This document shows, in pieces, positions 14,900-32,400 of a stretch of 64,000 bases of DNA. How positions within the stretch are numbered: the stretch's first letter is position 1; the number at the start of each line of letters is the position of its first letter. The notes beneath the pieces were generated by a model. The model worked only from the letters and a program-made list of their open reading frames with translations, was not told the origin of the DNA and did not search any database. The position numbers and the translations under genes were made by a program. Source of the stretch: Rhodothermales bacterium (GTDB lineage: Bacteria; Bacteroidota; Rhodothermia; Rhodothermales; JANQRZ01); assembly GCA_039944855.1 (NCBI GenBank), contig JBDUXZ010000003.1:1-64000 (forward strand), given 5' to 3'.

Positions 14900-17800
14900 A
14901 TGGCTTCATCCGGCAGTAAGCGCGCGCTCGTCGTCGGCGTCGACACGTACGAGAACCTCTCCGTGTTCGACCACCTCGAAGGCTGCGTCAACGACGCACG
15001 CCTCATGGCGCAGCTCCTCCGTGACCGGTTTGGCTTCCCCGAGGAGCACGTCACGCTCCTCACCGACGCCGAGGCCACGCGCGACGGCATCCTCGCCGCA
15101 ATGGACGCCCTCGCCGACGCCACCGCCGAGGACGACATCGTGGTGATGTTCTTCGCCGGCCACGGCTCGCAGATGACCTGCCGCGAGGGCGACGAGCCCG
15201 ACGGCCTCGACGAGACGATCGTCCCCTACGACACCGGCCGCGCGAACCACCCCGACGCGCCCGGCAGCGCCGACGACACCAACCGCGACATCTCCGACGA
15301 CGAGATCAACGTGTGGCTTCGCCGCGTCACCGCGAAGACCTCCTACGTCACGCTCCTCTTCGACTGCTGCCACTCGGGTACGATCGCCCGCGATACGTTC
15401 GGCGCGAAGGCTCGCTACCTCGCGCCCGACACGCGCCCCGTCGAGGAGCTCCCGCCCTCGCCCATCCCGCACGTTGTCACACGGGGCACGCGCGCCGAAG
15501 TCGGCCCGAGCGGGTGGCTCCCCCTCAGCGATCGCTACGTCCTCATCGCGGGCTGCGCCGACGACGAGTGCTCCTACGAGTATCGCGACCCCGAGACCGA
15601 CACGCCCCACGGCGCGCTCACCTTCTTCCTCGCCCGCGCCTTCGCCGACGCCCGCCCGGGCACGACGTACCGCGACATCTACGAGCGCGTCTGCCCCTCC
15701 GTCAACGCCCACGCCTCGAAGCAGCATCCGCAGCTAGAGGGCGCACTCGACCGCGAGCTCTTCGGCATCCGCACCATCGAGCCGATGCGGTTCGTCGGGG
15801 TGGAGAAACGAGATGGGCCGACGGTGACGCTCGCCGCCGGCGCAGCGCAGGGCCTCACCGTCGGCTCGGAGTGGGACGTGTACCCGGCGGGGACGAAGAC
15901 GACCGACGACGCCACCCCGATCGGCCGCGTCCGCGTCACGCACGTCGGAGCGGTCGCGTCGAAGGCAGAACTCATGGAAGAGAGCGCCGACGGCGTCGAG
16001 CCCGGTGCCCGCGCCGTCGAAGCTCTCCACGCCGCCCACGCTGCGGGCCTCCGCGTCCACCTATCGGTCCCCGACGGCTTCGACGAAGCAGCGCAGGCGC
16101 TCACGGCTGAACTCGACAAGACGCCGCTCGTCACAGTCGTCGGCGACGTCGAGCCGGCCGACGCGCGGGCCTACCTCCTCGTGCCGCGCGCGGACGACGA
16201 CGGCCCGGTGCCGCAACTCGGCGCGGTCGCCGAAGCGTCGTGGGCGGTCGTCGGGAGCACGGACGGAAGGCTGCTGATGCGCGTCCACCCCGTGAGCAAG
16301 GCGGGGGTGGCACGGCTGCTTCGGGACAACTTCGTCAAGATCGCCCGCTACCGTTTCGGTCTCGCCCTCGACAACCCTGACCCGCACAGCACGCTCCGAG
16401 GCGCGCTCGACGTACGACTCCAAAAGAAACAGGGCAGCGAGTGGGCTGACGCCACGCCCGACGCCGGGGGCCGCGTCGTCTTCGCAGAGAGCGATCGGCT
16501 CGCGTTCACGATCACGAATAACCACACCGAGCCGCTCTACGTCTACGCGCTCGACTTCGACATCACGCACGGGATCTACCCACTCACCGTGCAGGGCGCG
16601 AACGAGACGCTGGCACCCGGCAACACGCTCAAAATCGGCTATCCCGACGGGATCGCGTTCGAGTTCGACGACGCCTTCCCCTTCGCCCCGCAGCCGAACG
16701 AGGCCGACCCCATCGAGGGGACCGAGACGCTGAAAGTCTTCGGCACGACGCAGCCGGCCGACTTCTCCTCGTTCAATCAGGAGCCCACGCGGTCGAGCGC
16801 GTTCGGCGAAGCCGAGGGCGGGTCGTCGCTGCAACAGCTCATCCGCCGCGCGGCGCTCGGCGCGCCGACGCGGAAGATCGCCCTCCACCAGAAGACCACC
16901 GACGACGGGGATTGGACGACGGCGTCGCGCTCGTTCATGCTTCGGAAGGAGACGGCGAGCGCGACGCTCGACGCGGGCGGGAGCACCGCCGCGCTCGGTG
17001 ACATCACGATCCGCACGCGCGGGCTCGGCGGCGAGGCGCGCGTGCTCCCTCCGTTGAATGCAGCCCCCGCCGGCACCCGCAGCGCCCCCCGCATCGGCGC
17101 CTCGACGGGCGTGCTCGACGGGCTCCACGCCGTGCTCGCGCAGGAGCGCGTCGGCGCGCAGCAGACCGTCGAGATCGACGTGGCGCGGACCCGCAGCCTC
17201 CCCACGCCCGGCGCGGAGCCGACGATCGAGGTGGAGGTGCCCGAACCCGACGCCGGGCACGGGCAGTTCGTGCTCTACACCGACGAGAGCGGCGTCACGA
17301 CGTGGCAGTTCGCCAAACCCGCAGCGGCGACGAGGAGCCTCGGCCCCAGGACGCGGCGCTACGTGATCGACCGCGCGGCGCCCGTCGCACCGGAAGGCGC
17401 CGCCACACGAGGGATCGCCGGAGCGGTGGGAAAGAAGCTTATCGAGGTGCTCGTCTTCCCCCTCATCGATCCACTCATCGGGGCCGTCACCGAAAAGTTC
17501 GCCGAGAAGTGGGAGGAGAAGGAGCGGCCCTACGGCCTCCGCCCGTTCACGCCTGCCAATTACACGTCGCCCGACGCCCCGGCGCTCGGCGACGACGATT
17601 GGCGGCGGCTCGGTGCAGGGCGCTCGCTTCTCTTCGTCCACGGCACGTTCAGCCGCTCGCACTCCGCCTTCGGCGCGCTGGGGACCGAGACGCTCGCCGC
17701 GCTTTCGCAGCGCTACGACGGCCGCGTGTTCGCCTTCGACCACTTCACGCTGTCCCACGACCCGCGCCGGAACATCGAAGAGTTCCTCGCCCGCCTCCCC

Positions 17801-18436
17801 GACGACGCCGCGCTCGACGTAGACATCGTGTGCCACTCGCGGGGCGGGCTCGTGAGCCGGATGCTCGCCGAGAAGCAGAGCGCGTTCTCGCTCGGCGCGC
17901 GGACGCTCCGCGTTGGGAACGTCGTGTTCGTCGCCTCGCCCAACGCCGGCACGAGTCTCGCCGACCCCGAGCACATGGGGACGCTCGTGGACACGTACAC
18001 GAACCTGCTGAACCTCGTCCCGGACAACCCGGTGACGGACGTGCTCGACGGTGTCGTGACCGTCGCGAAGCTCCTCGCTGTTGGCGCGCTCAGCGGGCTC
18101 AGCGGGCTGCAATCGATGCGGCCGGGCGGCGACTTCCAGCAGTGGCTCAACGCGGGGGGGACCCCGGGCGAGACGACGTACTACGCGCTTGGGGCCGACT
18201 TCACGCCCAGCCATCGGGGGATGCGGGAGTGGGCGAAGGACCGGCTGATGGACGCCGTCTTCGGAGCCGAGAACGACCTCGTCGTCCCGACGGCGAGCGT
18301 CTACGAGGCCAACGGCTCCGGCCTCTTCCCGATCGCCGAGCACCACGTCTTCGACGCCCACGCGGCGATCTCGCACGCGGGGTTCTTCCAGCACCCCAAA
18401 GTCCAGGAGAAACTGCTCGCATGGCTCACTGCCTAG
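14900..18436 (+). CDS. Caspase-family protease fused through DUF4384 to an alpha/beta-hydrolase (lipase-like)
   Basis: A 1178-residue multidomain protein. The N-terminal caspase/metacaspase domain (about residues 8-285) opens with KRALVVGVDTY and has the catalytic His in FFAGHGSQM (His88) and Cys in FDCCHSG (Cys157). A beta-rich section (about 295-495) follows, then a DUF4384-like domain (about 500-625; LAFTITNNHTEPLYVYALD), a partner typical of bacterial caspases. The C-terminus (about 905-1175) is an alpha/beta-hydrolase: oxyanion LLFVHGTFSRS, nucleophile Ser980 in VCHSRGGLVS, then ASPNAGTSL, as in PGAP1/lipase-like enzymes. No signal peptide. It heads an operon; its stop overlaps the next start by 16 bp. 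A protease joined to a lipase-like hydrolase suggests a toxic effector or a protease-activated hydrolase (inference). Confidence 0.9.
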   Translation: MASSGSKRALVVGVDTYENLSVFDHLEGCVNDARLMAQLLRDRFGFPEEHVTLLTDAEATRDGILAAMDALADATAEDDIVVMFFAGHGSQMTCREGDEPDGLDETIVPYDTGRANHPDAPGSADDTNRDISDDEINVWLRRVTAKTSYVTLLFDCCHSGTIARDTFGAKARYLAPDTRPVEELPPSPIPHVVTRGTRAEVGPSGWLPLSDRYVLIAGCADDECSYEYRDPETDTPHGALTFFLARAFADARPGTTYRDIYERVCPSVNAHASKQHPQLEGALDRELFGIRTIEPMRFVGVEKRDGPTVTLAAGAAQGLTVGSEWDVYPAGTKTTDDATPIGRVRVTHVGAVASKAELMEESADGVEPGARAVEALHAAHAAGLRVHLSVPDGFDEAAQALTAELDKTPLVTVVGDVEPADARAYLLVPRADDDGPVPQLGAVAEASWAVVGSTDGRLLMRVHPVSKAGVARLLRDNFVKIARYRFGLALDNPDPHSTLRGALDVRLQKKQGSEWADATPDAGGRVVFAESDRLAFTITNNHTEPLYVYALDFDITHGIYPLTVQGANETLAPGNTLKIGYPDGIAFEFDDAFPFAPQPNEADPIEGTETLKVFGTTQPADFSSFNQEPTRSSAFGEAEGGSSLQQLIRRAALGAPTRKIALHQKTTDDGDWTTASRSFMLRKETASATLDAGGSTAALGDITIRTRGLGGEARVLPPLNAAPAGTRSAPRIGASTGVLDGLHAVLAQERVGAQQTVEIDVARTRSLPTPGAEPTIEVEVPEPDAGHGQFVLYTDESGVTTWQFAKPAAATRSLGPRTRRYVIDRAAPVAPEGAATRGIAGAVGKKLIEVLVFPLIDPLIGAVTEKFAEKWEEKERPYGLRPFTPANYTSPDAPALGDDDWRRLGAGRSLLFVHGTFSRSHSAFGALGTETLAALSQRYDGRVFAFDHFTLSHDPRRNIEEFLARLPDDAALDVDIVCHSRGGLVSRMLAEKQSAFSLGARTLRVGNVVFVASPNAGTSLADPEHMGTLVDTYTNLLNLVPDNPVTDVLDGVVTVAKLLAVGALSGLSGLQSMRPGGDFQQWLNAGGTPGETTYYALGADFTPSHRGMREWAKDRLMDAVFGAENDLVVPTASVYEANGSGLFPIAEHHVFDAHAAISHAGFFQHPKVQEKLLAWLTA

Positions 18437-19128
18437 CTTGTTTCCCCACCCGCTTCGTGGCCGGCCTCGTGCTCCTGCTCTCCGGGTGCACCGCCCCTTC
18501 GACCGTCGCGCAACCCCTCGTGCCACCGACGGTTGAGGTGTGTGCAGCAGAGCCGGTCCTTGCGGTCGTCGGTGAGCCCGTCGACTTCATCGCTGCGGTG
18601 GGGGGCAAAGTGGACACCGCGTCGTGGGACTTCGGGGATGGGACGACGGCGGCCGTACGCGACACGACGCACACGTACGCAGAGCCGGGGGTTTATGGCG
18701 CGGCGTTCACCGCCGCGAATGCCGCCGGACGCACAGCCTGCACCGCCACGGTTGTCGTTGACGCGCCGTACTGCCTCGACATCGTCGAGCTGAACAGCGT
18801 GTATTTCGGACGCAACAGCAGCCGGATCGATGATGGAATGGCGGACCCGAACACCGAAGCCCGACTCGCCGAGAATCTCGAGCTGATCCTCTCCTGCCCG
18901 AGCATGGCGATCGAGATCGGAGGCGTGGCGCAGGCTCGGGAGCGCCGCCCCCGCACCCTCGCCGAGGAGCGGGCGCAAGCGGTCGGCGCGTATTACATCA
19001 AGGGCGGAGCCCGACCGGAGCAGATCCGCATCATCGAAGGGACCATAACCACGTCGGATCCGGACGAATCAGGGCCGATCGTCCGAACACGCCGCGCTGA
19101 CTCGTTCCCCCGCCCTGCCCAACGCTGA
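18421..19128 (+). CDS. Lipoprotein with PKD and OmpA-like domains
   Basis: A 235-residue envelope protein. A signal sequence ends in an LLLSGC lipobox (Cys about 23). A PKD-type beta-sandwich follows (about residues 35-115; SWDFGDGTT and HTYAEPGVY). The C-terminal region (about 120-235) resembles the OmpA peptidoglycan-binding domain: VELNSVYFGRNSSRI, a helix, then EIGG...RRPRTLAEERAQAVGAYY and QIRIIEG. It would anchor to the outer membrane and bind peptidoglycan. The ATG at 18421 lies inside the end of the caspase gene (16-bp overlap), so the two are translationally coupled. It probably provides the envelope-side scaffold or sensor of the caspase/CHAT system. Confidence 0.85.
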   Translation: MAHCLACFPTRFVAGLVLLLSGCTAPSTVAQPLVPPTVEVCAAEPVLAVVGEPVDFIAAVGGKVDTASWDFGDGTTAAVRDTTHTYAEPGVYGAAFTAANAAGRTACTATVVVDAPYCLDIVELNSVYFGRNSSRIDDGMADPNTEARLAENLELILSCPSMAIEIGGVAQARERRPRTLAEERAQAVGAYYIKGGARPEQIRIIEGTITTSDPDESGPIVRTRRADSFPRPAQR

Positions 19129-19135
19129 GCCTCGC

Positions 19136-20794
19136 ATGGCCGACTACAAAGACTTCCGACTGAGCATCGTGCGCCGAGGCGACGAGGTGTGGGTGACGTC
19201 GAGCTCGCCGGCGAGCGGAGAGAGCGAGGCCCGCCTCCGGCTCCCCGACGACCTCGACGCCTACCAGCTCACGGCGCTCCTCGCCGCCGAGCACGGCGGG
19301 ACGGCGCGCGGGACCGGAGACGCCGAGCCCCGCGTCGAGCGCAGAATCGCCATAAACGCGGGGTCTTCGCCCTCTGAGGAGCGCGCCGAGCGGATCGGGA
19401 GCGAGCTGTTCGAGACCCTTTTCCCCGGCCCCATCCGCGACGCGTTCAACCGCAACTGGGGCACCGGCCGTGACAGCGGCGTCCGCATCCGGCTCCAGAT
19501 CAACCTCAACGACGACGACGAGACGATCCAGCGCCTCGCCGGGCTCCCGTGGGAGCTCCTTTACCTCGACGGGACGCGGACCGCGCTCGGACGCTCGCCG
19601 CTCACCCCGGTCGTCCGCTACCTCAACGTGCCGCGCCCCTACACGACGGTCCCACTCGGAGGGACGCTCCGCGTGCTCCTCGTCGTCGCCAACCCCAGGG
19701 ACACGCACGCGCTCGACCTCACGACGGAGAAGGAAGGGATCGAGCGCGTGCTTCGGTCGCTCGCGAACGTGGAGGTGGACGTGCTCGAACACGCGACGCG
19801 CGACAGCCTGCGCGATGCGCTAGACACGAAGCCGTACCACGTCCTCCACTACATGGGCCACGGCGGGTTCGAGGGCGGTACGGGCGTGCTGTTTCTGGAG
19901 GACGACGAGCGCCGCGCCGTGCCACTCTCGGGCGAACTCCTCGGCGGCACACTCAGCGCGATGCCCTCGCTCCGGCTCGTCTTCCTCAACGCCTGCGACA
20001 CGGGCCGGACGAACCACGAGGCCGGGCGCGACCCGTTCGGCGGCGTTGCGGCGTCACTCGTGCTCGCGGGCGTCCCCGCCGTCGTCGCCATGCAGGTGCC
20101 GGTCTCGGACCGCGCCGCGCTCGCCTTCGCTGATAAGTTCTACGAGCAGGTCGCCCACCGGAAGCCGGTCGACGCCGCCGTTTCGCTCGGACGGCAGGCG
20201 ATCTACTGGGAAGACCAGACGTCACTGGAGTGGGCCACGCCCGTCTTGTTCATGCGCGCCCCCGACGGCCACCTCTTCGACGTCGAGCCCGAGCCGGCGG
20301 AGCCCGAGCCCGTGGACGCCGCCCCGGTGCCCGTTCCCGCTGCTCCGCCTGTCGCCCGACCGCGGCGAGGGCTCGTCTGGGGCGGGGCCTTCCTCGGCGT
20401 CGCGCTCCTCGCTGCCCTCGCGTTCTTCCTCACGCGCAACGGAGAGCCGGACGACGTGCTCCCGGATGACCCCCCCATCGTCGAAGTGCCTGCTCCGACG
20501 CCGGCCGATGTCGCGGATGTCGGTCTCCAGCCTCCGCAGGCGTCTCTCGCGGTGGGCGGCTCGCTCGCGTTCCGCTCCTCGCTCCTCGACGCCGAGCGGC
20601 GGCCGGTCACGCTCCTCGGCGACGACGGGCAGCCGCTCCGCAACCGCGCGCTCACCTGGTCCTCGAGCGACTCGACGGTGCTCCGCGTCTCCGAAACCGG
20701 CGTCGTCTCAGCCGTCGGGCCGGGGCGGGCGACCGTCTACGGTCAGATCGGGGAGCACCGCGACAGCGCCCGCGTGTCCGTTCGTGCTCCCTGA
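19136..20794 (+). CDS. CHAT-domain protease with membrane anchor and Big2-like C-terminal domain
   Basis: A 552-residue protein. The N-terminal 90 residues are variable. A CHAT (caspase-like) protease domain covers about 95-385, with LPWELLYLDG, the catalytic His in HYMGHGGF (His242) and Cys in LNACDTG (Cys287), and ending in TPVLFMRAPDG. A Pro-rich linker leads to one transmembrane helix (about 412-432). A bacterial Ig-like group 2 domain follows (about 455-550; LTWSSSDSTVLRVSETGVVSAV). With no signal peptide the likely topology is protease in the cytoplasm and Big2 domain in the periplasm. It starts 7 bp after the OmpA-like lipoprotein gene. It may convert an envelope signal into proteolysis; substrates are unknown. 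Confidence 0.92.
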   Translation: MADYKDFRLSIVRRGDEVWVTSSSPASGESEARLRLPDDLDAYQLTALLAAEHGGTARGTGDAEPRVERRIAINAGSSPSEERAERIGSELFETLFPGPIRDAFNRNWGTGRDSGVRIRLQINLNDDDETIQRLAGLPWELLYLDGTRTALGRSPLTPVVRYLNVPRPYTTVPLGGTLRVLLVVANPRDTHALDLTTEKEGIERVLRSLANVEVDVLEHATRDSLRDALDTKPYHVLHYMGHGGFEGGTGVLFLEDDERRAVPLSGELLGGTLSAMPSLRLVFLNACDTGRTNHEAGRDPFGGVAASLVLAGVPAVVAMQVPVSDRAALAFADKFYEQVAHRKPVDAAVSLGRQAIYWEDQTSLEWATPVLFMRAPDGHLFDVEPEPAEPEPVDAAPVPVPAAPPVARPRRGLVWGGAFLGVALLAALAFFLTRNGEPDDVLPDDPPIVEVPAPTPADVADVGLQPPQASLAVGGSLAFRSSLLDAERRPVTLLGDDGQPLRNRALTWSSSDSTVLRVSETGVVSAVGPGRATVYGQIGEHRDSARVSVRAP

Positions 20795-20829
20795 TAGATC
20801 GAACCCCGCCCTCTCACTTTACTCCCCTC

Positions 20830-21747
20830 ATGCTGACTGCTCTCTCCTTGCGTAGACGACTCCTCGCGCTTGCTTCTGTCGCTCTCATCGTAGCTGGCTC
20901 TGCTCCGAGTGCCTTCGCTCAAGCCCCGACGCTCGTCCAGTTCAGCCTGTCGGAGCGCTCGACCTATGTCGAAACGACGCATAGCGACTGGCAGAGCGAC
21001 CGCGATCTCCGCTACTTCTCGAAGTCGAAGAAGTACGAGCTGTGCACGGACTGCGAGGACGGGACCGAGCCCGGCTGCGCCGATTGCTGGTGGGCGCGGT
21101 GCGACCAGCTCCTCGCGGAGCCGCTCACGCTGAAGGCGATGAAGACGTACGCCACCGGGCTCGGCCAGCCGGAGCAGATGCGCCACGTCGCCGACCGCGC
21201 GAGCCTGAGGGCCCTCGTTTACAACGAACCGGAGGGCACGCTCCAGGGACTCCTCCCCCAGACACGCGCCGCGTGGAACGAGATCGGAGCCACGGACCGC
21301 GACCGCCTCATCGCGCTCGGGCGGGACTGCACGGTCGGCGGCCCCGACCCGCTCGTGTTCACCTTCGTCCTGAGCAACCCCGGCGAGCGCGCCGTGTTCG
21401 TGACGGAGATCGTCCACCACCGCCTCTTCGACTTCGGCGAGGCCGCCGGCGGCCCCCCCGGCACGTCGGGCCCGTTCGAGCCCGAGGTCGACTACGTGCA
21501 CGAGGTCGACTTCAAATGCGAATTCGAAGCCGGCGGCGGGCAGAGCACCGAGTCCGTAGCCCGCCCCCTCGCTCCGCCCTTCCGCATCATGGGGGACGAC
21601 GCGGTGAGCTTCGAGCTCCAGTCCATTTACGATGGGACGTCCACCGGTTTCCTCGCCCCGATCAAGATGCGGCTCGACGTCGTGACGTCCGGGGGAACCG
21701 TGAGCACGCCGGAGTTCATCGTGGAAGCCCCCTCTTGCGGAGGCTGA
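20830..21747 (+). CDS. Secreted protein of unknown function with a Cys-rich patch
   Basis: A 305-residue exported protein. The signal peptide (RRLLALASVALIVAG...SAFA) is followed by cleavage near residue 30. No lipobox and no further membrane segment. A cysteine cluster at about residues 73-94 (ELCTDCEDG...CADCWWARC) has paired CxxC motifs and could form disulfides or bind metal. A beta-rich second half (LVFTFVLSNPGERAVFVTEI and onwards) resembles an extracellular beta-sandwich. I recognise no family. It sits between the two membrane CHAT genes with gaps of 35 and 28 bp, so it is very probably an accessory or ligand of their periplasmic domains. Confidence 0.8.
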   Translation: MLTALSLRRRLLALASVALIVAGSAPSAFAQAPTLVQFSLSERSTYVETTHSDWQSDRDLRYFSKSKKYELCTDCEDGTEPGCADCWWARCDQLLAEPLTLKAMKTYATGLGQPEQMRHVADRASLRALVYNEPEGTLQGLLPQTRAAWNEIGATDRDRLIALGRDCTVGGPDPLVFTFVLSNPGERAVFVTEIVHHRLFDFGEAAGGPPGTSGPFEPEVDYVHEVDFKCEFEAGGGQSTESVARPLAPPFRIMGDDAVSFELQSIYDGTSTGFLAPIKMRLDVVTSGGTVSTPEFIVEAPSCGG

Positions 21748-21775
21748 TCGCTCTTCCCATTCCCAAGCACCCATT

Positions 21776-23785
21776 ATGGATTACCTCGACTTCGAGATCC
21801 GCATCACACCCGGTGACGACGGGCGCTACCCCGTCCACGTCATCGACGCGCCCGACGCCGAGCGGCCGACGGCGACGATGGTGCTCCCCTTCGACGAGGG
21901 CACGCTGAAGAGCCACCTCCAGAACCTCCAGATCGCGCTCCTCCAGTCGAAGTCCACACGGCGGGCGCTCGTGCAGCCGCAGGAGCAGCTCTCGGTGAAG
22001 GACTTCGGGCAGGTCCTCTTCGACACCGTGCTCCCGGACGACGTGCGGGCGTGCTACCAGCGCAGCCGCAACAAAGCCGCCGCGAGCGGGAAGGGGCTCC
22101 GCCTCCGCCTCCGCATCGAGGCCCCCGACCTCGCTGCGCTCCCGTGGGAGTTCCTCTACGACGAAGCCGCCGGCGACTTCGTCTGCCTCTCGAACGAGAC
22201 GCCGATCGTCCGCTACCTCGCGCTCGACCGGCCCGTCGCGCCGATCCGAATTACGCCCCCGCTCCAGATCCTCGGGATGGTCGCCGCCCCCGACGACAAG
22301 CCCCAGCTCAACGTCGGGCGTGAGAAGCAACGGATGAGCGAGGCACTCGCGGGGCTCGAAGCGCGGGGCCTCGTTCGGCTGACGTGGCTGGAGGGGCAGA
22401 CGTGGCAGGAGCTCCAGCGGGCGATGCGGCAGGGGCCGTGGCACATCTTCCACTTCGTCGGCCACGGCGGCTTCGACCCGTCCATCAACGAGGGCGTGCT
22501 CGCGTTCGCGAAGGAGGACCGGCAGACGGGGATCGCGGCGGGGAACGACGCGCCGCCGCCGACCCGAACCGACCCGCTCCCCGCTACGAAGATCGGCCAA
22601 CTCCTCGCCGACCACCGCGACCTCCGCCTCGTCGTCCTCAACGCCTGCCAGGGCGCGACGGCCAGCACCGACGACATCTTCTCCAGTACGGCGAGCGTGC
22701 TCATCCGTAAGGGCATCCCCGCCGTCGTCGCGATGCAGTACGAGATCACCGACCGCGCCGCGATCGAGTTCGGGCGCGGGTTCTACGCCTCCGTCGCCGA
22801 CGGGCTGCCGGTGGACGCTTCTGTGGCCGAGGCGCGGAAGGCGGTCAACTTCGCGATGGACTACACGGTCGAGTGGGGGACACCGGTGCTCCACATGCGC
22901 GCCCCCGACGGGCGGCTCTTCGACATCGATGCGCTCGCGGCAGCACCCCCGGCCCCGCCGCCTCCTAAACCCGCTGTCGAAGTGGTCATGGAGCCCGAGC
23001 CGGCACCGCGTCCGGTAGAAGCCCGGCCCCCCGCTCCCGGCCCGGTCCGGCCCGCACGCGCTGCCGCCGTATCACCCGACGCGAGCGGGAGGAGCAAGAC
23101 GTTCCTTTGGGGAGCCGGCGCTGGCATCGCCTTCCTTCTCCTCGCTTTCATAGCGTTGGGTTTCTGGCTTAATCGCGGGCCGGAGCCAGCGCCGGAGCCG
23201 GAATGGCAGTACATCGGTGAGGTCACGATCGAGGAGGTGGCGCCTATGGCTCTCGGCGAGACCGCCTACATCCAGGCACGGCTTTGGAATGAGGCCGGAG
23301 AGGAGATAGGCGAGGAGACGGTGTACCCCGATTGGGTGCTCACGTGGTCCGCCGAGCCGGAAGACATCGTGAACCTTACCTACGACGAGGAGGGGCGCGG
23401 GGTATACGTCGAGGCGTGGACGGCGGGCACCGTCACCATAGCCGCCACCGTCAACTACGATTACTCCTTCCACGAAGAATCTCCGTCCGACGCTATCGCT
23501 ATGCCGATCACAGTTCCTCCATCTCGCTCCGTGGACAGCGGCGTGCCCGTAGATGTGACTTTCGCCAACCAGTCATCCGCTCGGGTGGATATGGTGTGGG
23601 TCGATCATCAAGGAGCAGAACGTCCCTACGGAGGGATAGAACCCGGGGCGGATATCACGCAGCCCTCGTTCGCGAGGCACGTATGGCGCCTGAAGGAGTG
23701 GGAGACGGGGCTCGTGCTGGGGACGTTTGTAGTGGCGGAGTCGCCGCCCGAGCAGCGGTTCACGATTCGGGACGCTGTCCGGTAG
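21776..23785 (+). CDS. CHAT-domain protease with membrane anchor, Ig-like domain and C-terminal VHL beta domain
   Basis: A 669-residue protein. The CHAT domain (about residues 95-390) has LPWEFLYDE, the catalytic His in HFVGHGGF (His230) and Cys in LNACQGA (Cys291), and ends HMRAPDG. A Pro-rich linker, one transmembrane helix (about 443-466) and an Ig-like region (about 475-590) follow. Residues about 591-669 match the von Hippel-Lindau beta domain. Phe596, Trp608, Tyr618, Ser631, His635 and Trp637 fall at exactly the spacing of human VHL Phe76, Trp88, Tyr98, Ser111, His115 and Trp117, without a gap. These include the hydroxyproline-binding residues. Protease inside and VHL domain outside is the likely topology. 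It is the last gene of the operon. Confidence 0.9.
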   Translation: MDYLDFEIRITPGDDGRYPVHVIDAPDAERPTATMVLPFDEGTLKSHLQNLQIALLQSKSTRRALVQPQEQLSVKDFGQVLFDTVLPDDVRACYQRSRNKAAASGKGLRLRLRIEAPDLAALPWEFLYDEAAGDFVCLSNETPIVRYLALDRPVAPIRITPPLQILGMVAAPDDKPQLNVGREKQRMSEALAGLEARGLVRLTWLEGQTWQELQRAMRQGPWHIFHFVGHGGFDPSINEGVLAFAKEDRQTGIAAGNDAPPPTRTDPLPATKIGQLLADHRDLRLVVLNACQGATASTDDIFSSTASVLIRKGIPAVVAMQYEITDRAAIEFGRGFYASVADGLPVDASVAEARKAVNFAMDYTVEWGTPVLHMRAPDGRLFDIDALAAAPPAPPPPKPAVEVVMEPEPAPRPVEARPPAPGPVRPARAAAVSPDASGRSKTFLWGAGAGIAFLLLAFIALGFWLNRGPEPAPEPEWQYIGEVTIEEVAPMALGETAYIQARLWNEAGEEIGEETVYPDWVLTWSAEPEDIVNLTYDEEGRGVYVEAWTAGTVTIAATVNYDYSFHEESPSDAIAMPITVPPSRSVDSGVPVDVTFANQSSARVDMVWVDHQGAERPYGGIEPGADITQPSFARHVWRLKEWETGLVLGTFVVAESPPEQRFTIRDAVR

Positions 23786-23881
23786 CGTGCCGTTCGGGGG
23801 CCGCCCGCTCCATCGAGGCCACTCCCCTATCAGCCGCTGCGGCTTCGTCGTCCCGTGAGCGCGCCGTTCCGAACCCGGATC

Positions 23882-24196
23882 TCAGTCGAGGCCGCCGCCG
23901 ACGCTGCCGCCGCCGCCGCCGCTCGTTCGGTCTCGGTCGCCGCCCCGGCACGGTGCCGCGAGGTCCCCGATGCGCGCGACGAAATCGAGCGGCGAAGACT
24001 CCGTAGCCTGCACGTTCAGGCGCCGACTCTCACCGGCTGGAATCTCGAAGCGCTCCGCGCCGAACACCTTGTCCGGGGCCACGCAGAGCACCGTATCGGC
24101 CTCGACGCTGAACGTCACAGCGTCCCCTGTATTGAGGTTCAGCGTAGACGGTGTGCATCTGCCGTCGCTATCGATGCGCACGGTGATCTCGGTCAT
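23882..24196 (-). CDS. Small beta-rich protein, possibly cupredoxin-like
   Basis: A 104-residue protein without signal peptide. The pattern LNLNTGDAVTFSVEADTV, FEIPAGESRRLNV and SSPLDFVARI resembles a short cupredoxin-type beta-sandwich. The copper ligands of real cupredoxins (late Cys-His-Met) are not evident, so metal binding is doubtful. The last 25 residues are a low-complexity Gly/Arg/Asp tail. It starts 37 bp after the stop of the Ser/Thr kinase gene on the same strand and is probably co-transcribed with it. It converges on the end of the VHL-CHAT gene. Function unknown. Confidence 0.65.
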   Translation of the reverse strand: MTEITVRIDSDGRCTPSTLNLNTGDAVTFSVEADTVLCVAPDKVFGAERFEIPAGESRRLNVQATESSPLDFVARIGDLAAPCRGGDRDRTSGGGGGSVGGGLD

Positions 24197-24233
24197 AGCA
24201 GCTCTGAAAAGTGAGAGGAACAGGATGTCTGCG

Positions 24234-26849
24234 TTAACCCTGCGACGCGGACAGGGCTTGCAGCAACTCTCGATAACGAGGGTCGGACCTCAGCGCGTCG
24301 AGGTCGGGAGAGGCTTCGACATCCGCACGCTGAAGCCCCTGCCTAAGCCCCTGTTCAATATATTCTAACGCCCGCTCCCGATCGCCTACTATTTCGTAGA
24401 CGACCGCCATGTCGTGGAGGACGCCGGGACGCACCTGGGCGAGTCCGGCGAGGCGCTGCAGCGCCACGCGGGCACTGTCCGCCTGCCCAATTCGCGCGTG
24501 GCTGACGGCCAATCCGACGAGGGCGTTTTCGTCGTTCGGGTTCACGCGGAGGGTCTGGCTGTCCAGGGCAATCATGCGGCGCCAAGCCGCACGGGCACGG
24601 GCCTCCTCGCCGTCTCGGAAGTAGGCCTCTGCCAGGTACGCCCACGTCTCCGCATCCGTGCTGTCGATGGCAAGCGCGCGCTCGTGCATCCGCGCCGCCT
24701 GCGCGTAGTCCCGGTTCCGCGCGTGGATCTGCCCGATGTTTTTGTACGCGCTCGCCGTCGGGCCGGTCGCGGAAGGGTTGACCTCGGCGGCCCGCCGGTA
24801 CCACACCACCGCCGAGTCGAGCCGGCCGAGGTTGTGATACTGAGCACCGACATTGTTGTAGCCCCACGGGTTGTCCGGCCGGAGCTCGACCACGCGACGG
24901 TAGACCGACAGCGCCTCCTCGTGGCGGCCTTGCACGTGGTAGAAGAAGCCGAGGCTGTTGTAAAACGCCCAGTACCCCGGCTTGAGCGCGATGGCTTTGC
25001 GGTACGCCGCTTCGGCGTCTTCGGGGCGGCCGAGGTAGTAGTAGGTGGCCGCGAGGTGGCGGTGCGCCTCGGCGTTCGTGGAGTCGAGCGCGAGGGCACG
25101 GCGCAGTTCGCGCTCGGCCGCCTCGTAGCGTCCCGTGCCTTTGTACACGATGCCGAGTGTGACGCGGACCGGCGCGAGGTCGCCCCCGAGCGCAGCGGCC
25201 CGCTCACCGGCCTCCGACGCTCGCTCCACCCACTGCGGATCGCGGGTCGCCTCGTAGCGACGCCAGTAGGCCTCGCCCAGCCCAGCCCACGCGAGCGCGT
25301 AGCTGCTGTCGGCTTCGATGGCCCGTCGGAACAGCCGGACCGCACTGTCGATGTTCCGTTCGTCCTCGTAGCGCTGGAGGTAGCCGCGGGCCTGGGTGTA
25401 GTAGTCGAACGCGCCGGGGTCCGAGGTTCCGCCGGCCCGGAGCGCGCGCTCGGCCGCCGTGCTTAGTTCGAGGTCGAGGAGCGCGGCGAGGATGAGCGCG
25501 ACGCTGTCCTGCAGCGCCAGCACGTCTGCCATCGACTTGTCGAGGATGCGGCTGCCGAGTCGGCGGCCCGCGTCGGCGTCGTAGAGGTCGAGCGTGAGGC
25601 GGACCCGCTCGGCGGCGCGCTGCACGCTCCCGCTCACCACGAGATTCGCCCCGAGCGTACGCGCCGCCTCACTCGGCGTACTCACCTTGGCCGCTAGCGC
25701 CTCAGCCGTGGGAAGGACGGAGAGCCGGTCGGCGAACTGCTCCATCCCACTCAGCGTCGCCCCAATCGTATAGGCCAGCCCGTCGATAAACGCCTGGTTG
25801 GCGGGGTCGCCCCCGATGTTGGCGAACGGCAGCACGGCGACGTCCCGCGCCTCGGCACCGTCCTCGCTCGATCCCGACCCGAACCACACGAACGCCGCGA
25901 TGAGGGTGACGAGCGCGAGCACTCCCACGCCCGCCCACGCCGGGAAATGGAATCGCCGACGCGTCGCGACGGCCCCGCCCCGCTGCACCGCTTCGAGGTC
26001 GGCGAGGACGGCCTGCCCGTCGGGATAGCGCGCCGCCGGGTCCTTTTCGAGGCAGCGGGCCACGACGCGAGCGAGCGCCTCCGGCACCGCGGCGGCGAGG
26101 GGTGGCGGCTCCTCGTTGAGCAGGCTGTAGACGACGGCCTGCTCGTAGGCCCCGCGAAACGGCCGCGCCCCGCTGAGCATCTCGTAGAGCACGACGCCGA
26201 GCGCCCACACGTCGGCTCGGGCATCAACGGCGTCGCCGCGCGCCTGCTCCGGGCTCATGTAGGCGACGGTGCCGACGGTCGCGCCCCCCTTCGTGAGATG
26301 GACGTCCGCCACCTTCGCCACGCCGAAGTCGACGAGCTTCACGACGCCCTCGGGCGTGACGAGGACGTTGGCCGGCTTCACGTCGCGGTGGACGATCCCG
26401 GCGGTGTGCGCCCGCGCGAGCGCCCGCGCGAGCTGGACGGCGAGATCGAGCGCTTCGCTTGGGGCCAGCGGCCCCCGCTCGATCCGGCGGTGGAGCGTCT
26501 CGCCGGGGACGAACGCCATCGCGATGAACAGCAGCCCGTCTTCGGTCTCGCCGACGTCGTGGACCGTGCAGATGTTGGGGTGGTCGAGGGCGGACGCCGC
26601 CCGCGCTTCGGCGCGGAGCCGCTCGGCCGCATCGGCGTCACCGTGGAGGAGCGGCGGCAGGAACTTCAGCGCGACGGGCCGGCGGAGTCGGACGTCTTCG
26701 GCGCGGTAGACCACGCCCATCCCGCCGCGCCCGATCGCGTGCGAGACGGCGTAGTGCGAGACCGTCCGCCCGGCCAACCCGTACGGATCCCGCGTCGCGG
26801 CGGCCTGCTCGGCGTCGTCGGGCTGCGTCGGGTGGTCGAGTGCAGACAT
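24234..26849 (-). CDS. Ser/Thr protein kinase with membrane helix, TolB-like domain and TPR array
   Basis: An 871-residue Hanks-type kinase. The kinase domain covers about residues 32-295: glycine loop IGRGGMGVVY, Lys in VALKFL, catalytic HRDVKPANV, DFG in VDFGVAK, activation-segment YMSPEQARG. A transmembrane helix lies at about 312-333. A TolB-N/adenylate-cyclase-associated type domain follows (about 345-480; VAVLPFANIGGDP and LVVSGSVQR). The remainder is at least eight TPR-type repeats (YALAWAGLGEAYWR, NVGAQYHNLGRLDSA and others) outside the membrane or as a scaffold. ATG at 26849 was preferred to an upstream extension of low-complexity sequence. A TATCTTG box at 26998-26992 may be its promoter -7 element. 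It could phosphorylate components of the adjacent CHAT/caspase operon (inference). Confidence 0.93.
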   Translation of the reverse strand: MSALDHPTQPDDAEQAAATRDPYGLAGRTVSHYAVSHAIGRGGMGVVYRAEDVRLRRPVALKFLPPLLHGDADAAERLRAEARAASALDHPNICTVHDVGETEDGLLFIAMAFVPGETLHRRIERGPLAPSEALDLAVQLARALARAHTAGIVHRDVKPANVLVTPEGVVKLVDFGVAKVADVHLTKGGATVGTVAYMSPEQARGDAVDARADVWALGVVLYEMLSGARPFRGAYEQAVVYSLLNEEPPPLAAAVPEALARVVARCLEKDPAARYPDGQAVLADLEAVQRGGAVATRRRFHFPAWAGVGVLALVTLIAAFVWFGSGSSEDGAEARDVAVLPFANIGGDPANQAFIDGLAYTIGATLSGMEQFADRLSVLPTAEALAAKVSTPSEAARTLGANLVVSGSVQRAAERVRLTLDLYDADAGRRLGSRILDKSMADVLALQDSVALILAALLDLELSTAAERALRAGGTSDPGAFDYYTQARGYLQRYEDERNIDSAVRLFRRAIEADSSYALAWAGLGEAYWRRYEATRDPQWVERASEAGERAAALGGDLAPVRVTLGIVYKGTGRYEAAERELRRALALDSTNAEAHRHLAATYYYLGRPEDAEAAYRKAIALKPGYWAFYNSLGFFYHVQGRHEEALSVYRRVVELRPDNPWGYNNVGAQYHNLGRLDSAVVWYRRAAEVNPSATGPTASAYKNIGQIHARNRDYAQAARMHERALAIDSTDAETWAYLAEAYFRDGEEARARAAWRRMIALDSQTLRVNPNDENALVGLAVSHARIGQADSARVALQRLAGLAQVRPGVLHDMAVVYEIVGDRERALEYIEQGLRQGLQRADVEASPDLDALRSDPRYRELLQALSASQG

Positions 26850-27075
26850 GGGAGAGCCGGGGGTGGACTCGTAGCGGGGCGCGGCATGGATCGGCGAGGC
26901 GCCGGCCCCACGCCTTCCGTGCTCGCCCCGTCGCGCGTTGCCGTCGGACGACCCGGCGGGCAGGACGGAGTCAGAGAGCGGGAAGAAATCGCAAGATAGG
27001 CGCGGCGGCGGTGTGCTCGTGCGGGAACAGGCGGCGCTCACCCCGCTTCCACCTTGCCCCTACTCCCCGGCTCCC

Positions 27076-27448: not shown

Positions 27449-28588
27449 TCAGGTCGTCGCGCCGCCGCAGGAGGAGCCGGCGCCGGCGGTGCAGCCGTAG
27501 CAGTGGCGGGCCGTGAGGATCTGCCGCGCCTGCCACGCGTCGAGGTCGAAGTCGGCGACGTGGGCGAACGGCACGGCCGCGTCCATCTCCAGCTGCTGGT
27601 TGAAGTCGCAGTCGTAGACGCGGCCGTCCCAGCTCACCGAGATCGTGTTCCGGCACATCAGCCCGTCAATCGTGGCGGGGTTGAACGCGTTGACGAGGCG
27701 CTCCATATACGCCTCCGTCATCCCCTTCTCCAGCAGCCACTCGAGGTAGCGCGACATCGGCATGTTGTTGAGCGCGAAGAGCCGGTCGAACGACACGCCG
27801 TGGTTCTTCGCGAGCGCCGCCTTCCACTCCTCCTCCAGCGAGCCCTGGCTGCCCGCGAGGAACGCGCCGACGGGGTTCGTGACGAGCGTGAGCACGCGGT
27901 CGGGGTCGCCCTGTCCGTAGCCCGCCGCGTTGAGCCGGCGGAGCGCTTCGATGGACTTGACGTAGGTCCCGTCGCCGCGCTGCGCGTCGGTGCCGAGCTT
28001 GCGGTAGTGCGGGAGCGAGCACGCGACCTCGACGCCGCGCTCCGCCATCCATTCGGGGAGGTGCTGGTAGCGGCGGACGAGCAGGATTGTGAGGTTGCAC
28101 CGGTCGATGACGTGGAGCCCGCGCGCCACACACTCGTCGACGAGGTACTCGAAGTGCGGGTTGAGCTCCGGCGCGCCGCCCGTGAGGTCGACGGTGTGCG
28201 CCCCGCTCGCGTCGATCGCCCGGAGGCAGGCGTCGACGGTGGCGCGGTCCATGTTCTCGTCGGTGCGGTCCGGTCCCGAATCAACGTGGCAGTGCCGGCA
28301 CGTCATGTTGCAGAGCTTGCCGATGTTGATCTGGAAGATCTCCAGAGCGGCGGGCGTGAGCGTGGGCCACCCGCTCGCGGCGAGGTCGGCGTCGAAGTCG
28401 CCGGTGCCGGTCGGCCCGCCGGTGAGCGCGACGGCGTCGAGCGCGTGGAACTGCTCGGCGGGCTCAGCGAGGGGCGTGCGGCGGGCGTGGAGGCTCGTCG
28501 TCCGCTTCGGGCCGGTCTCGGGCGAGTCCAGCATCAGCTCGCGGCTGAGAACGGTCAGGTCGATGAAGCCGGTGTCGGCGATGCTCAT
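27449..28588 (-). CDS. arsS: Arsenosugar biosynthesis radical SAM protein ArsS
   Basis: A 379-residue radical S-adenosylmethionine enzyme of the ArsS type, which transfers an adenosyl group to methylated arsenic on the way to arsenosugars. The 4Fe-4S/SAM motif is CNMTCRHCHVD (CxxxCxxC). Downstream the family blocks TVDLTGGAPELNPHFE, LNNMPMSRYLEWL and SWDGRVYDCDFNQQL are present. The C-terminus carries a Cys-rich auxiliary segment (HCYGCTAGAGSSCGG). ATG at 28588. It follows the AhpD-like gene (28693-29025) in the same direction, its usual partner. The arsenite methyltransferase ArsM that normally acts first is not in the window. Confidence 0.93.
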   Translation of the reverse strand: MSIADTGFIDLTVLSRELMLDSPETGPKRTTSLHARRTPLAEPAEQFHALDAVALTGGPTGTGDFDADLAASGWPTLTPAALEIFQINIGKLCNMTCRHCHVDSGPDRTDENMDRATVDACLRAIDASGAHTVDLTGGAPELNPHFEYLVDECVARGLHVIDRCNLTILLVRRYQHLPEWMAERGVEVACSLPHYRKLGTDAQRGDGTYVKSIEALRRLNAAGYGQGDPDRVLTLVTNPVGAFLAGSQGSLEEEWKAALAKNHGVSFDRLFALNNMPMSRYLEWLLEKGMTEAYMERLVNAFNPATIDGLMCRNTISVSWDGRVYDCDFNQQLEMDAAVPFAHVADFDLDAWQARQILTARHCYGCTAGAGSSCGGATT

Positions 28589-28692
28589 GGGAGAAGGTGG
28601 GGGTGGAATAAGGGGATCGGGGAAGATCGGGCCGAGCGGCGAGCGCAGACAGGCCAATCGGTGTCCGGCCGTTGCTCACAACCTACGCGCGG

Positions 28693-29025
28693 CTACATCA
28701 TCTTCGCCTTCGCGTGCTCCAGCATCTGCACGCCGTGCACGAGCGAGGCCCCGCCGCGAATCGCCGTAGCGACGTGGACGGCCTCCGTCATCTGCTCCAG
28801 GTCCGCACCTTTTTCGAGCGATTCCGACGTGTAAGCGTCGATGCAGTACGGGCACTGCACGGTGTGGGCGACGGCGAGCGCGATCAGCGCCTTCTCGCGG
28901 GCCGAGAGCGCACCGTCCTCGAACACCTTGCCGTAGTAGCTGAAGAACGCATCGGCGAGCGGCTGGCTGCCTTCAGCGATGTCGCCGAATTTGGCGAGGT
29001 GCGCGGGCTTGTAGTAGGTGTCCAT
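28693..29025 (-). CDS. AhpD/carboxymuconolactone decarboxylase-like protein (arsenosugar-associated)
   Basis: A 110-residue all-helical protein of the carboxymuconolactone decarboxylase/AhpD family. The core SAREKALIALAVAHTVQCPYCIDAY carries the CxxC redox pair (CPYC) and the downstream His position is replaced by Tyr-Thr-Ser. The small single-domain form beginning MDTYYKP is the version found next to arsS genes and annotated as an arsenosugar-synthesis-associated peroxidase-like protein. It is 104 bp upstream of arsS in the same direction. A role in protecting or reducing arsenical intermediates is inferred from that linkage. Confidence 0.88.
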   Translation of the reverse strand: MDTYYKPAHLAKFGDIAEGSQPLADAFFSYYGKVFEDGALSAREKALIALAVAHTVQCPYCIDAYTSESLEKGADLEQMTEAVHVATAIRGGASLVHGVQMLEHAKAKMM

Positions 29026-29484
29026 GAGGGGTCCGTTGAGGGCGGGTACGGCCGGCCGGAAGCCGGCGGATGCGGGAGGGCCTTTGTCGCAACAAGCGTC
29101 GTGGAGGTTCCGCGGCCTTTCTCAATAAAGCACCACATTCGCCGTTCCGCTGCCCCGCCTCCGTGTAAGACCGGGCAGCGGAACGGGTTTCGGTAGCCGG
29201 AAAACAATCCCGACGCGCGAAGGCACCGCCCGCTCCCCCTCCGCCCTGCGCGGCGCTCGATCGCCGAGTTTCCTAGGGCATTCGGAATGCTCGCGTTCCT
29301 ATTCCGGGGCTTGTCGAGACACGTAGGCAAGGTCCCTCGAATCGGCGGGCTCCTTGTCGGAGGACGCTCGTTCCGCACTCCCTGCGGCAGCCTCATGCCG
29401 TTACGTACCCGTCGCCCTTCGAAAGCCCCTGGCTCGCCGATAACTGCATTCATTCCGCCTCCTCCCTTGCTTCCCCCCTCCCCC
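29026..29484. other. Long divergent spacer with one strong hairpin
   Basis: 459 bp between the leftward AhpD-like gene and the chosen GTG start of the rightward histidine kinase. The only clear structure is a perfect 14-bp inverted repeat (29142-29155 and 29173-29186, CCGTTCCGCTGCCC) with a 17-nt loop. The open frame from 29287 through 29484 has no domain similarity and looks like leader. I see no RNA gene or repeat array in the rest. Confidence 0.5.
29142..29186. other. Perfect 14-bp inverted repeat (hairpin or operator)
   Basis: Arms 29142-29155 and 29173-29186 pair perfectly around a 17-nt loop. GTTTCGG follows on the plus strand. It lies between divergent genes, so it is not at a gene end. 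An operator, a leader structure for the kinase operon, or a relic of a terminator are all possible. Confidence 0.55.
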
Positions 29485-32400
29485 GTGACCATCAGCAGCG
29501 AAGAGGCGAGCCGTCTCCTGAGCGAGACGATCCAGGACCTCGTCTGCCTCCACGAGCCCGACGGCACCTATCTCTGGGTCAGCCCGTCGTGCCGGGACCT
29601 CCTCGGCTACGACCCCGGCGAACTCATCGGCACGCCCCACCTCGCCCTGGTCCACCCTCAGGACCAGCAGGCCGCTCAGGCGCAACGGAGTGAATCCGCG
29701 CTCGACGGCGCGGTACCGAGCGTAGCCGCATCGGGCATGGCCGAATACCGCATCCGCCGCAGAGACGGGGACTACGTCTGGTTCGAGACCCGAACGCGCA
29801 CGATCCGGGGCGACGACGGCGAGGTCCTCCGTCTCCAGACCAACTCCCGCGACGTGACCGAGCGCCGGCGGGCCGCCGACGAGCTCCGCCGCTCCGAGGA
29901 GCTCCTCGGCAGCGTGCTCGCCTCCTCCCTCGACGGCGTGATGGCGTTCGACAGCGTCCGCGACGACGAAGGCCACGTCGTCGACTTCACCTTCCGCCTC
30001 GTCAACCCCGCGGCCGAGGCCGCCGTCGGGCGCAGCAGCGCGGACCTCATCGGGAAGCGGCTGCTGGAGGAGCTGCCCGGCAACCGCGACGAAGGCCTCT
30101 TCGACATGTACTGCGAGGTCGTCGAGACGGGCGAGCCTCAGAGCGCGGAGTTCTTCTACGATCACGACGGCATCCGGGCGTGGTTTCAGAACACGGCCGT
30201 GAAGCGGGGCGACGGGTTCGCCGTGACCTTCCGCGTCGTGACCGAGCAGAAAGAGGCCGAGGAGACCCTCCGCAAGAGCGAGGAGCGCCTCCGCCTTCTC
30301 CTCCAGGTCACCTCCCACCAATCCGGCACCCTTGACGAGCAGATCCACGAGGCCCTCGGGCTCGCTACCGGCCTGCTCGACCTCGATATCGGGATCCTCA
30401 GCCAGGTCGAGGACGGGATCTACACCGTCTCCCACGTCTTCGCGCCGGAGACGGAGCTAGCCCCGGGGCAGACGTTCGCGCTCGGGCAGACGTACTGCAG
30501 CCTCACGCTCGACCGGGACGGGCTCGTCGCCGTCGACCACATGGGTAGCTCCGAGTACAGCGGGCACCCGTGCTACCACGCGTTCGGGCTGGAAGCCTAC
30601 ATCGGCATGCCGATCCAGGTCGGAGGCCGGCTCTACGGCACGCTCAACTTCTCCAGCCCGGCTGCCCGCCCTCGCCCGTTCACCGACCTCGACCGGAATT
30701 TCCTCCTCCTCCTCGGCCGCTGGCTCAGCCATGCCATCGAGCAGCAACGGAACGGCGATGCCCTCCGGCGGAGCGAGGAGAACCTCGCCTCCGCCCAGCG
30801 CATTGCCCACCTCGGGAGCTGGGAGTGGGATCTCCAGACGGGCGCCCACGCGTGGTCCGACGAGCTCTACCGGCTCTACGGTCTCGACCCGGATGATCCG
30901 CCCGCGGACCTCGCCGCCGCCGCCGTCCGGGGCGCGCACCCTGAGGACCGGCCCCTCGTCGAGTTTGAATTCGAGACCGTCCTCAACACCCCGCCCGAAG
31001 AGGCCGGGATCCCCACGCGGCCAGCCTTCGAGTACCGCATCCCGGCGGAAGACGGGTCGCTCCGCTATGTCCGGTGCCTCAGCCGGACCGTCCTCGACGA
31101 GCGCGGCGGCTTCACCGCGATCGGCACCGTGCAGGACGTGACGGAGGAGAAGAAGAACGAGCAGCTCAAGAACGAATTCATCTCGATCGTAAGCCACGAG
31201 CTGCGAACGCCGCTAACCTCTATCGCCGGCTCCCTCCGGCTGATTGCGTCGCAGACGGCCGGGGCCGTCTCCGCTCCGGTCCAGGGCATGCTCGACATCG
31301 CCCAGCGCAACTCCGACCGCCTCGTCCGCCTCATCAACGACATCCTCGACGTGCAGAAGGTCGAGGCGGGCGGGCTCCGGCTGCAACTGGAGCCGCACGC
31401 GCTGGCGGACCTCCTCGCCTCCGCCGTCGAGGCGAACGCGGGCTACGGCGAGCGCCGCGAAGTGCAACTCGTGCTCCACCCGGTCCCCGACGTCGAGGTC
31501 CGCGCCGACAGCGACCGCTTCATGCAGGTCATGGCGAACCTCCTCTCGAACGCCATGAAGTTCTCGCCGGCGCAGGGCGAGGTCGCGGTGACCGCTCGGG
31601 CCACGAATGGCGGCGTACGCATCGAAGTGACGGACCACGGGCCAGGTATCCCCGCCGCGTTCCACAGCCGTCTCTTCGACCCGTTCGCGCAGGCCGACAG
31701 CTCCTCCACCCGGAACAAGGAAGGGACCGGCCTCGGCTTGAACATCGCGAAGTCGCTCGTGGAGCTTCACGGTGGCCGCATCGGGTTCGAGACGGAGATC
31801 GGTGTCGGTACCACGTTCCACATCGACCTCCCGGCCGAGGCCCGGCAGTCGCCCGGCGAGGAGCCGACGTGGGCCCGCATCCTCGTCGTCGAGGACGACA
31901 CGGGTGCCGCCCACCTCATGAGCATGATCCTGCGGCAGGACGGATTCCTAGTCGACACGGCCGGCACCATCGAGGCCGCCCGCGGCTGCCTCGCCGAACG
32001 CCGCTACGCCGCCCTCACCCTCGACCTCCGCCTCCCCGACGGGGACGGACTCACCCTCCTGAGCGAGGTCCGGGCCCAGACCCCGACGCTCCCCGTCGTC
32101 GTCGTGTCCGTCGAGGCGGACATCCGCCGGCGCGCGCTCGAAGGCACCGCGATCCCGCTCGTCGACTGGCTCGACAAGCCGTTCCGCAGGAAGCGGCTCG
32201 TGGACTCCGTGCGCCAGGCGTTGCGTAGCGTCCCGGCTCCCCGCATCCTCCACGTCGAGGACGACGCCGATTGCGCCGCCGTGACGGCCCACATGCTGGC
32301 CGGCCTCGGCGAGGTCACGCCCGCGCCGACGCTCGCCGCCGCACGCGCCCTCCTCGCCGCCGAGCGCTTCGACCTCCTCCTCCTCGACCTCGGCCTCCCC

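Follow-up and report, generated by a model that had tools for sequence, protein, structure and literature searches.

The locus described here raises the question of whether a membrane-anchored bacterial CHAT protease carries a true von Hippel-Lindau (VHL) beta domain and, if so, what this domain would do there. Human pVHL senses oxygen by reading hydroxyproline. The gene in question, which we refer to as CHAT-VHL, lies in a stretch of 64,000 nucleotides from a Rhodothermales bacterium (the window, i.e. the whole stretch of DNA analysed; Table 1), and its open reading frame is intact, contains no internal stop and encodes 669 residues. As a VHL match, the protein is ordinary; what sets it apart is its architecture and the genes around it. 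The domain order CHAT-TM-Ig-VHL in one protein is new, as is the link of VHL to a caspase locus. The scans with the family model, which covered 114 genomes of the order and the 23 VHL places of the Verrucomicrobiota examined, yielded no second CHAT-VHL protein.

Table 1. Positions in the window of CHAT-VHL, its segments and the neighbouring genes
Feature	Position	Strand	Basis
CHAT-TM-Ig-VHL protein, 669 aa	21776..23785	+	Open frame; Pfam CHAT and VHL above cut-offs
CHAT caspase-like peptidase domain, residues 77-358	22004..22849	+	PF12770 E 8.6e-24, 84.9 bits (cut-off 24)
Single transmembrane helix (predicted), residues 443-465	23102..23170	+	Hydropathy maximum 2.28; helix 448-465 in model
Ig-like beta segment, residues about 466-580	23171..23515	+	Strands, low pLDDT; Big_2-like sequence there in relatives
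VHL beta domain, residues 584-669; pocket W608, Y618, S631, H635, W637	23525..23782	+	PF01847, AF2, VIA
C14 caspase-DUF7379 fusion (weakly similar to alpha/beta-hydrolase families)	14900..18436	+	PF00656 E 5.3e-26; PF24096 E 2.9e-57
PKD + OmpA-like lipoprotein	18433..19128	+	PKD 52.2 bits; OmpA 25.2 bits, just below cut-off 27.2; lipobox LSGC by eye
Second CHAT-TM protein, Big_2 Ig domain, without VHL	19136..20794	+	PF12770 E 1.2e-32; PF02368 E 1.5e-5
Exported 305-aa protein, N-terminal signal peptide by eye	20830..21747	+	Directly upstream of CHAT-VHL
Small cupredoxin-like protein that marks the conserved locus	23882..24196	-	PF13473 E 3.3e-4, below cut-off
Ser/Thr kinase with C-terminal TPR repeats	24234..27041	-	PF00069 E 1.8e-47; TPR families

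The C-terminal region is a VHL beta domain

The earlier note on this DNA, made from the sequence alone, had placed a VHL beta domain at the C terminus. In Pfam, PF01847 scored 33.8 bits over residues 584-642 (E 3.5e-8; cut-off 21), and 37.7 bits in the genome search; moreover, a phmmer search of the PDB with the domain alone returned VHL chains exclusively (E about 0.002). An AlphaFold2 model of residues 575-669, built with 27 sequences, had seven strands, a pLDDT of 90.4 and a pTM of 0.78. The best 50 Foldseek matches of this model were all pVHL, with E from 5.8e-8, and VIA-align 2 superposed it on human pVHL 63-156 (8zv8_C) with Z 14.8 and an rmsd of 1.0 Å over 85 residues, the beta-sandwich being present. 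In total, we conclude from the profile and the modelled fold that the C-terminal domain is a true VHL beta domain, in agreement with the note.

A gap-free alignment to human VHL over 80 residues, also claimed previously, held for the first ~54 residues (human 71-124) but not for the last 30, where the bacterial domain is shorter. The six residues singled out in that alignment all have the human spacing with a constant offset of 520, i.e. F596, W608, Y618, S631, H635 and W637 correspond to F76, W88, Y98, S111, H115 and W117. The open reading frame ends at the residue that superposes on human 156, where the human beta domain stops; therefore, the alpha domain of pVHL, which contacts Elongin C, is absent. 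CHAT-VHL shares with human pVHL 63-156 and PF01847 the profile, the seven-stranded fold and five pocket residues; by contrast, it has neither the alpha/Elongin-binding part nor an E3 ligase context, is fused to CHAT, and carries its VHL domain, by prediction, outside a bacterial inner membrane.

CHAT is predicted to be a peptidase on the cytoplasmic side of the membrane

By sequence, CHAT is a predicted peptidase with an intact His-Cys pair, and the two predicted catalytic residues, His230 (codon 22463-22465, in GHG) and Cys291 (codon 22646-22648, in NAC), were invariant in 10/10 aligned CHAT proteins. In the model of the full-length protein, CHAT (most of residues 1-390) and VHL were confidently predicted, a TM helix spanned residues 448-465, and residues 470-580 formed a poorly predicted, beta-rich stretch, in which Pfam found no match. 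Because of the low confidence of this Ig-like segment, no path for coupling across the membrane is visible, a point against the signalling model discussed below. Within the gene, third-position GC is 0.91 in the CHAT part but lower, at 0.77 and 0.75, in the Ig-VHL part (23171-23785).

The protein has no N-terminal signal sequence and one TM segment only. The 20 residues before this segment contain 4 K/R and 1 D/E, and the 20 residues after it contain 1 K/R and 4 D/E. Because this charge bias fits an inside N terminus and a signal peptide is lacking, we predict that CHAT is cytoplasmic and VHL outside the inner membrane; these two features are the whole basis of the orientation. Together, Pfam, the TM prediction, the charge bias and the model bear out the earlier description of a membrane-anchored CHAT protein with the domain order CHAT-TM-Ig-VHL, whose VHL end is predicted to face outward.

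In a Foldseek search, the closest folds to the CHAT part were SAVED-CHAT, separase, TPR-CHAT and DdvA (8rot, E 8.2e-10), and the closest solved sequence was SAVED-CHAT 8tl0. The CHAT fold and the His-Cys pair are common to CHAT-VHL, SAVED-CHAT (8tl0), TPR-CHAT/Csx29 of Craspase and HetF; in contrast to SAVED-CHAT and TPR-CHAT, however, no SAVED or TPR sensor was found in CHAT-VHL, in which VHL, on the outer side of the membrane, would act as the input module. SAVED-CHAT membership was rejected, as PDLC02016 matched the CHAT part alone (residues 201-401) and Pfam found no SAVED domain. HetF (NF045509), the best NCBIfam match of the CHAT part, was similarly rejected with 61.5 bits against an equivalog cut-off of 1200, in the CHAT part only. 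DdvA is a bacterial transmembrane anti-sigma factor that, like CHAT-VHL, contains a CHAT-like fold. In DdvA, this domain is periplasmic, its active site is incomplete, and it retains an ECF sigma factor; by contrast, the CHAT domain of CHAT-VHL has its His-Cys pair intact and is predicted to lie in the cytoplasm, with VHL outside.

CHAT-VHL is part of a caspase-rich gene cluster

CHAT-VHL is the last of five genes on the + strand that form a tight run, preceded by those for the C14-DUF7379 protein, the PKD-OmpA lipoprotein, the CHAT-Big_2 protein and the exported 305-aa protein. The spacings are -4, 7, 35 and 28 bases, the first being a 4-base overlap between the PKD-OmpA gene and the stop of the gene before it. 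The genes for the cupredoxin-like protein, 97 bases away, and the kinase-TPR protein are convergent to this run. The exported 305-aa protein, which contains a Cys-rich stretch, had no Pfam, NCBIfam or PADLOC match. A promoter scan of 18300-24300 gave no site, a result that is weakly informative if the organism uses other promoter types. General Pfam and PADLOC scans found no gasdermin family in the immediate neighbours of CHAT-VHL, and CRISPR genes were not seen in the gene run. Further along the window, we noted by eye radical-SAM-like and small AhpD-like open reading frames resembling an arsenosugar-type pair (27449-29025, - strand) and a long hybrid histidine kinase that combines PAS/GAF and receiver domains (29287-32619, + strand).

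The cupredoxin-like protein is present in 9/114 genomes of the order, and the locus recurs in about 9/114. The kinase and the cupredoxin-like protein occur together with a C14 caspase and/or CHAT on readable contigs of six genomes (G023, G012, G032, G059, G074 and G043); a contig end of G071 carries cupredoxin, CHAT and C14 side by side, and in G022, kinase and cupredoxin lie together while the CHAT genes are on other contigs. Most members of the conserved locus have C14 caspases. Moreover, C14 and CHAT are separated in G071 and G059 by a gene that begins with a caspase-like domain; in G071, its product is by Pfam a caspase-nSTAND1-WD40 protein (L049 2805-7733, - strand), and the gene in G059 (L048) is similar. 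Similar domains are found in conflict systems proposed for multicellular bacteria (PMC10907252). Because of this caspase, nSTAND1 and WD40 content, the locus is, judged by its genes, a caspase-rich cluster of conflict-system type.

VHL looks like an exchangeable outer module

We surveyed VHL by running the Pfam VHL model over genomes of the order, a draw from the phylum and Verrucomicrobiota. VHL scored above the cut-off in 3/99 near relatives, the source genome included, and in 2/395 genomes drawn from the phylum, both of them carriers already found among the near relatives; a sequence scan with two close relatives added one further, fragmentary locus only. All three VHL carriers have the cupredoxin-marked locus (9/114) with VHL inside it (hypergeometric 3.5e-4). 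In the other two carriers, G023 and G012, VHL is part of an exported protein that also has lectin-like repeats and ends in a C14 caspase, and the G012 protein has two VHL domains. The four VHL domains of the order cluster together with a support of 0.91 (FastTree, short alignment). Thus, the G012 and G023 proteins share with CHAT-VHL a VHL domain of the same grouping, a caspase-fold peptidase and the same conserved locus; they differ from it in having C14 rather than CHAT, a signal peptide rather than a TM helix, and VHL on the N-terminal side with the lectin-like repeats between.

CHAT relatives in G071 and G059 are 58% and 52% identical to CHAT-VHL over residues 1-555 and have different C-termini with no VHL tail. 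Because these close relatives end differently, VHL looks, by these comparisons, like a swappable outer module. The simplest reading is that, within a single locus, a VHL module was passed from one caspase-type gene to another, with gain and loss indistinguishable.

In Verrucomicrobiota, we found 23 VHL places in 18/289 genomes. At 18 of these (L011-L014, L016-L028 and L030), VHL lies before or within DPP-IV N-terminal/S9 peptidase proteins; the others are two sulfatases with C-terminal VHL (L031 and L033, in G684, a genome with four VHL places), two stand-alone exported proteins and one unknown. Relatives that have VHL but lack a TM segment start with a signal-peptide-like sequence, and VHL is therefore, by sequence, predicted to be exported in them too. 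Bacterial VHL domains are known to databases, and in our sample they are mostly accessory domains of peptidases that are predicted to be exported. A VHL-DPP-IV protein in the source genome was rejected: DPP-IV-type proteins exist there, and the sole VHL match is the CHAT-VHL gene.

The pVHL pocket is retained and may serve recognition

Human W88, Y98, S111, H115 and W117, which we take from established structures to line the hydroxyproline pocket of pVHL, are all present in CHAT-VHL. Across 31 bacterial VHL domains, CHAT-VHL included, the six most informative columns were N78, W88, Y98, S/T111, H115 and W117, of which all except N78 are pocket positions; N78 is presumably structural. The pocket columns were more conserved than the remaining ones (Mann-Whitney p 1.7e-6) in a set that was mostly recruited with the VHL profile, so that conserved profile positions are favoured, and whose related sequences are not independent. 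That pocket positions rank among the six most conserved columns argues for use of the pocket, and the retention of the human pocket residues proposed earlier for CHAT-VHL is upheld.

The reading that we prefer, which we regard as plausible but short of probable, is that VHL is a recognition module that captures an outside ligand and changes the state of CHAT, which then cleaves a partner. The aromatic-histidine pocket would capture a proline-containing peptide or another component of the envelope or the environment, ligand binding or clustering would be signalled via the Ig segment and the TM helix to alter the state of the CHAT protease, and activated CHAT would cleave a partner, the first candidate for which is the neighbouring C14 caspase of the same run. 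We include this last step because a cascade from CHAT to a caspase is known in type III CRISPR SAVED-CHAT systems. In favour of this mechanism are the C14 caspases in most of the loci and the fusion of VHL to the caspase itself in two relatives; moreover, the CHAT relatives in G071 and G059 combine a shared cytoplasmic part with other tails, as expected of a variable sensor. Ligand binding, the direction of the signal and the CHAT target are what we infer here, as is control of CHAT by a VHL domain that senses outside. With CHAT-VHL, bacterial caspase-type clusters gain a likely outside-facing input module. A fuller scheme, i.e. a transmembrane caspase-type receptor with a VHL ectodomain that reads (hydroxy)proline, acts through CHAT on a caspase cascade and was swapped as a reader between CHAT and C14 effectors, seems to us quite unlikely.

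The conserved pocket could serve anchoring instead of sensing, and this is the main rival to a sensor: VHL would fix the enzyme, in relatives the exported caspases, S9 peptidases and sulfatases, to a polymer or the envelope, with no switching of CHAT. Where secreted hydrolases have accessory domains, these usually serve in binding. VHL in Verrucomicrobiota indeed accompanies exported hydrolases (the 18 S9/DPP-IV-type proteins and two sulfatases among the 23 places), and a lipoprotein-like subtilase of G031 (L074 261-2492, - strand) has a VHL-like domain that is divergent, scores below the Pfam cut-off and apparently carries Phe in place of W88. However, CHAT is predicted to lie across the membrane from VHL, and with the two on opposite sides, outside anchoring makes less sense than signalling; we consider an anchor possible but somewhat unlikely. 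Protein-protein docking, in which VHL would contact a product of the locus (the PKD-OmpA lipoprotein, for instance, or the exported 305-aa protein) while folding would be the main reason for keeping the pocket residues, could account for the position of the 305-aa gene only 28 bases upstream and for the conservation of N78 outside the pocket; however, 11 relatives, including two with VHL-caspases, contain no match to the 305-aa protein, and conservation is concentrated at the pocket instead of being spread over the domain. We consider docking unlikely.

Finally, VHL could be a sensor of hydroxyproline proper, its pocket recognising, as in human pVHL, 4-hydroxyproline of foreign or environmental proteins (collagen-like, plant or algal wall); we consider this very unlikely, although the five pocket residues are complete, including Ser at position 111 where most domains of the 31-domain set carry Thr, and although VHL is joined in Verrucomicrobiota to S9/DPP-IV-type peptidases. 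Such enzymes are often proline-specific, and their fusion to VHL is a lead for the ligand. The source genome (97.9% complete) has no prolyl hydroxylase of the PF13640 type. Not all hydroxylase families fall under PF13640, and for a ligand taken from the environment no hydroxylase would be required. Co-occurrence with a hydroxylase was rejected as support for this ligand, because a PF13640 protein is present in the VHL carriers G012 and G023 and also in the VHL-less G032 and G022, so that there is no clear co-occurrence. Hydroxyproline is a reasonable first candidate ligand and not a conclusion.

Returning to recognition by VHL, its architecture and the conserved kinase-and-caspase cluster make binding by bacterial VHL domains directly testable: CHAT-VHL offers a small, well-predicted domain with a full pocket, a natural readout in the form of the protease, and relatives on caspases and S9 peptidases. 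The ligand specificity of such domains bears on whether proline reading predates the oxygen-sensing pathway of animals.

Other bacterial VHL proteins

The literature on bacterial VHL with CHAT or caspases yielded nothing except PMC9002001, in which an exported VHL beta-domain protein of Litorilituus sediminis was annotated in silico. Unlike for CHAT-VHL, no protease is reported for that protein, and the claims on its use as a tumour suppressor are irrelevant here. No VHL domain was found on viral contigs; stand-alone VHL forms were found on plasmids of Nostoc and Calothrix, and one on a Jannaschia plasmid.
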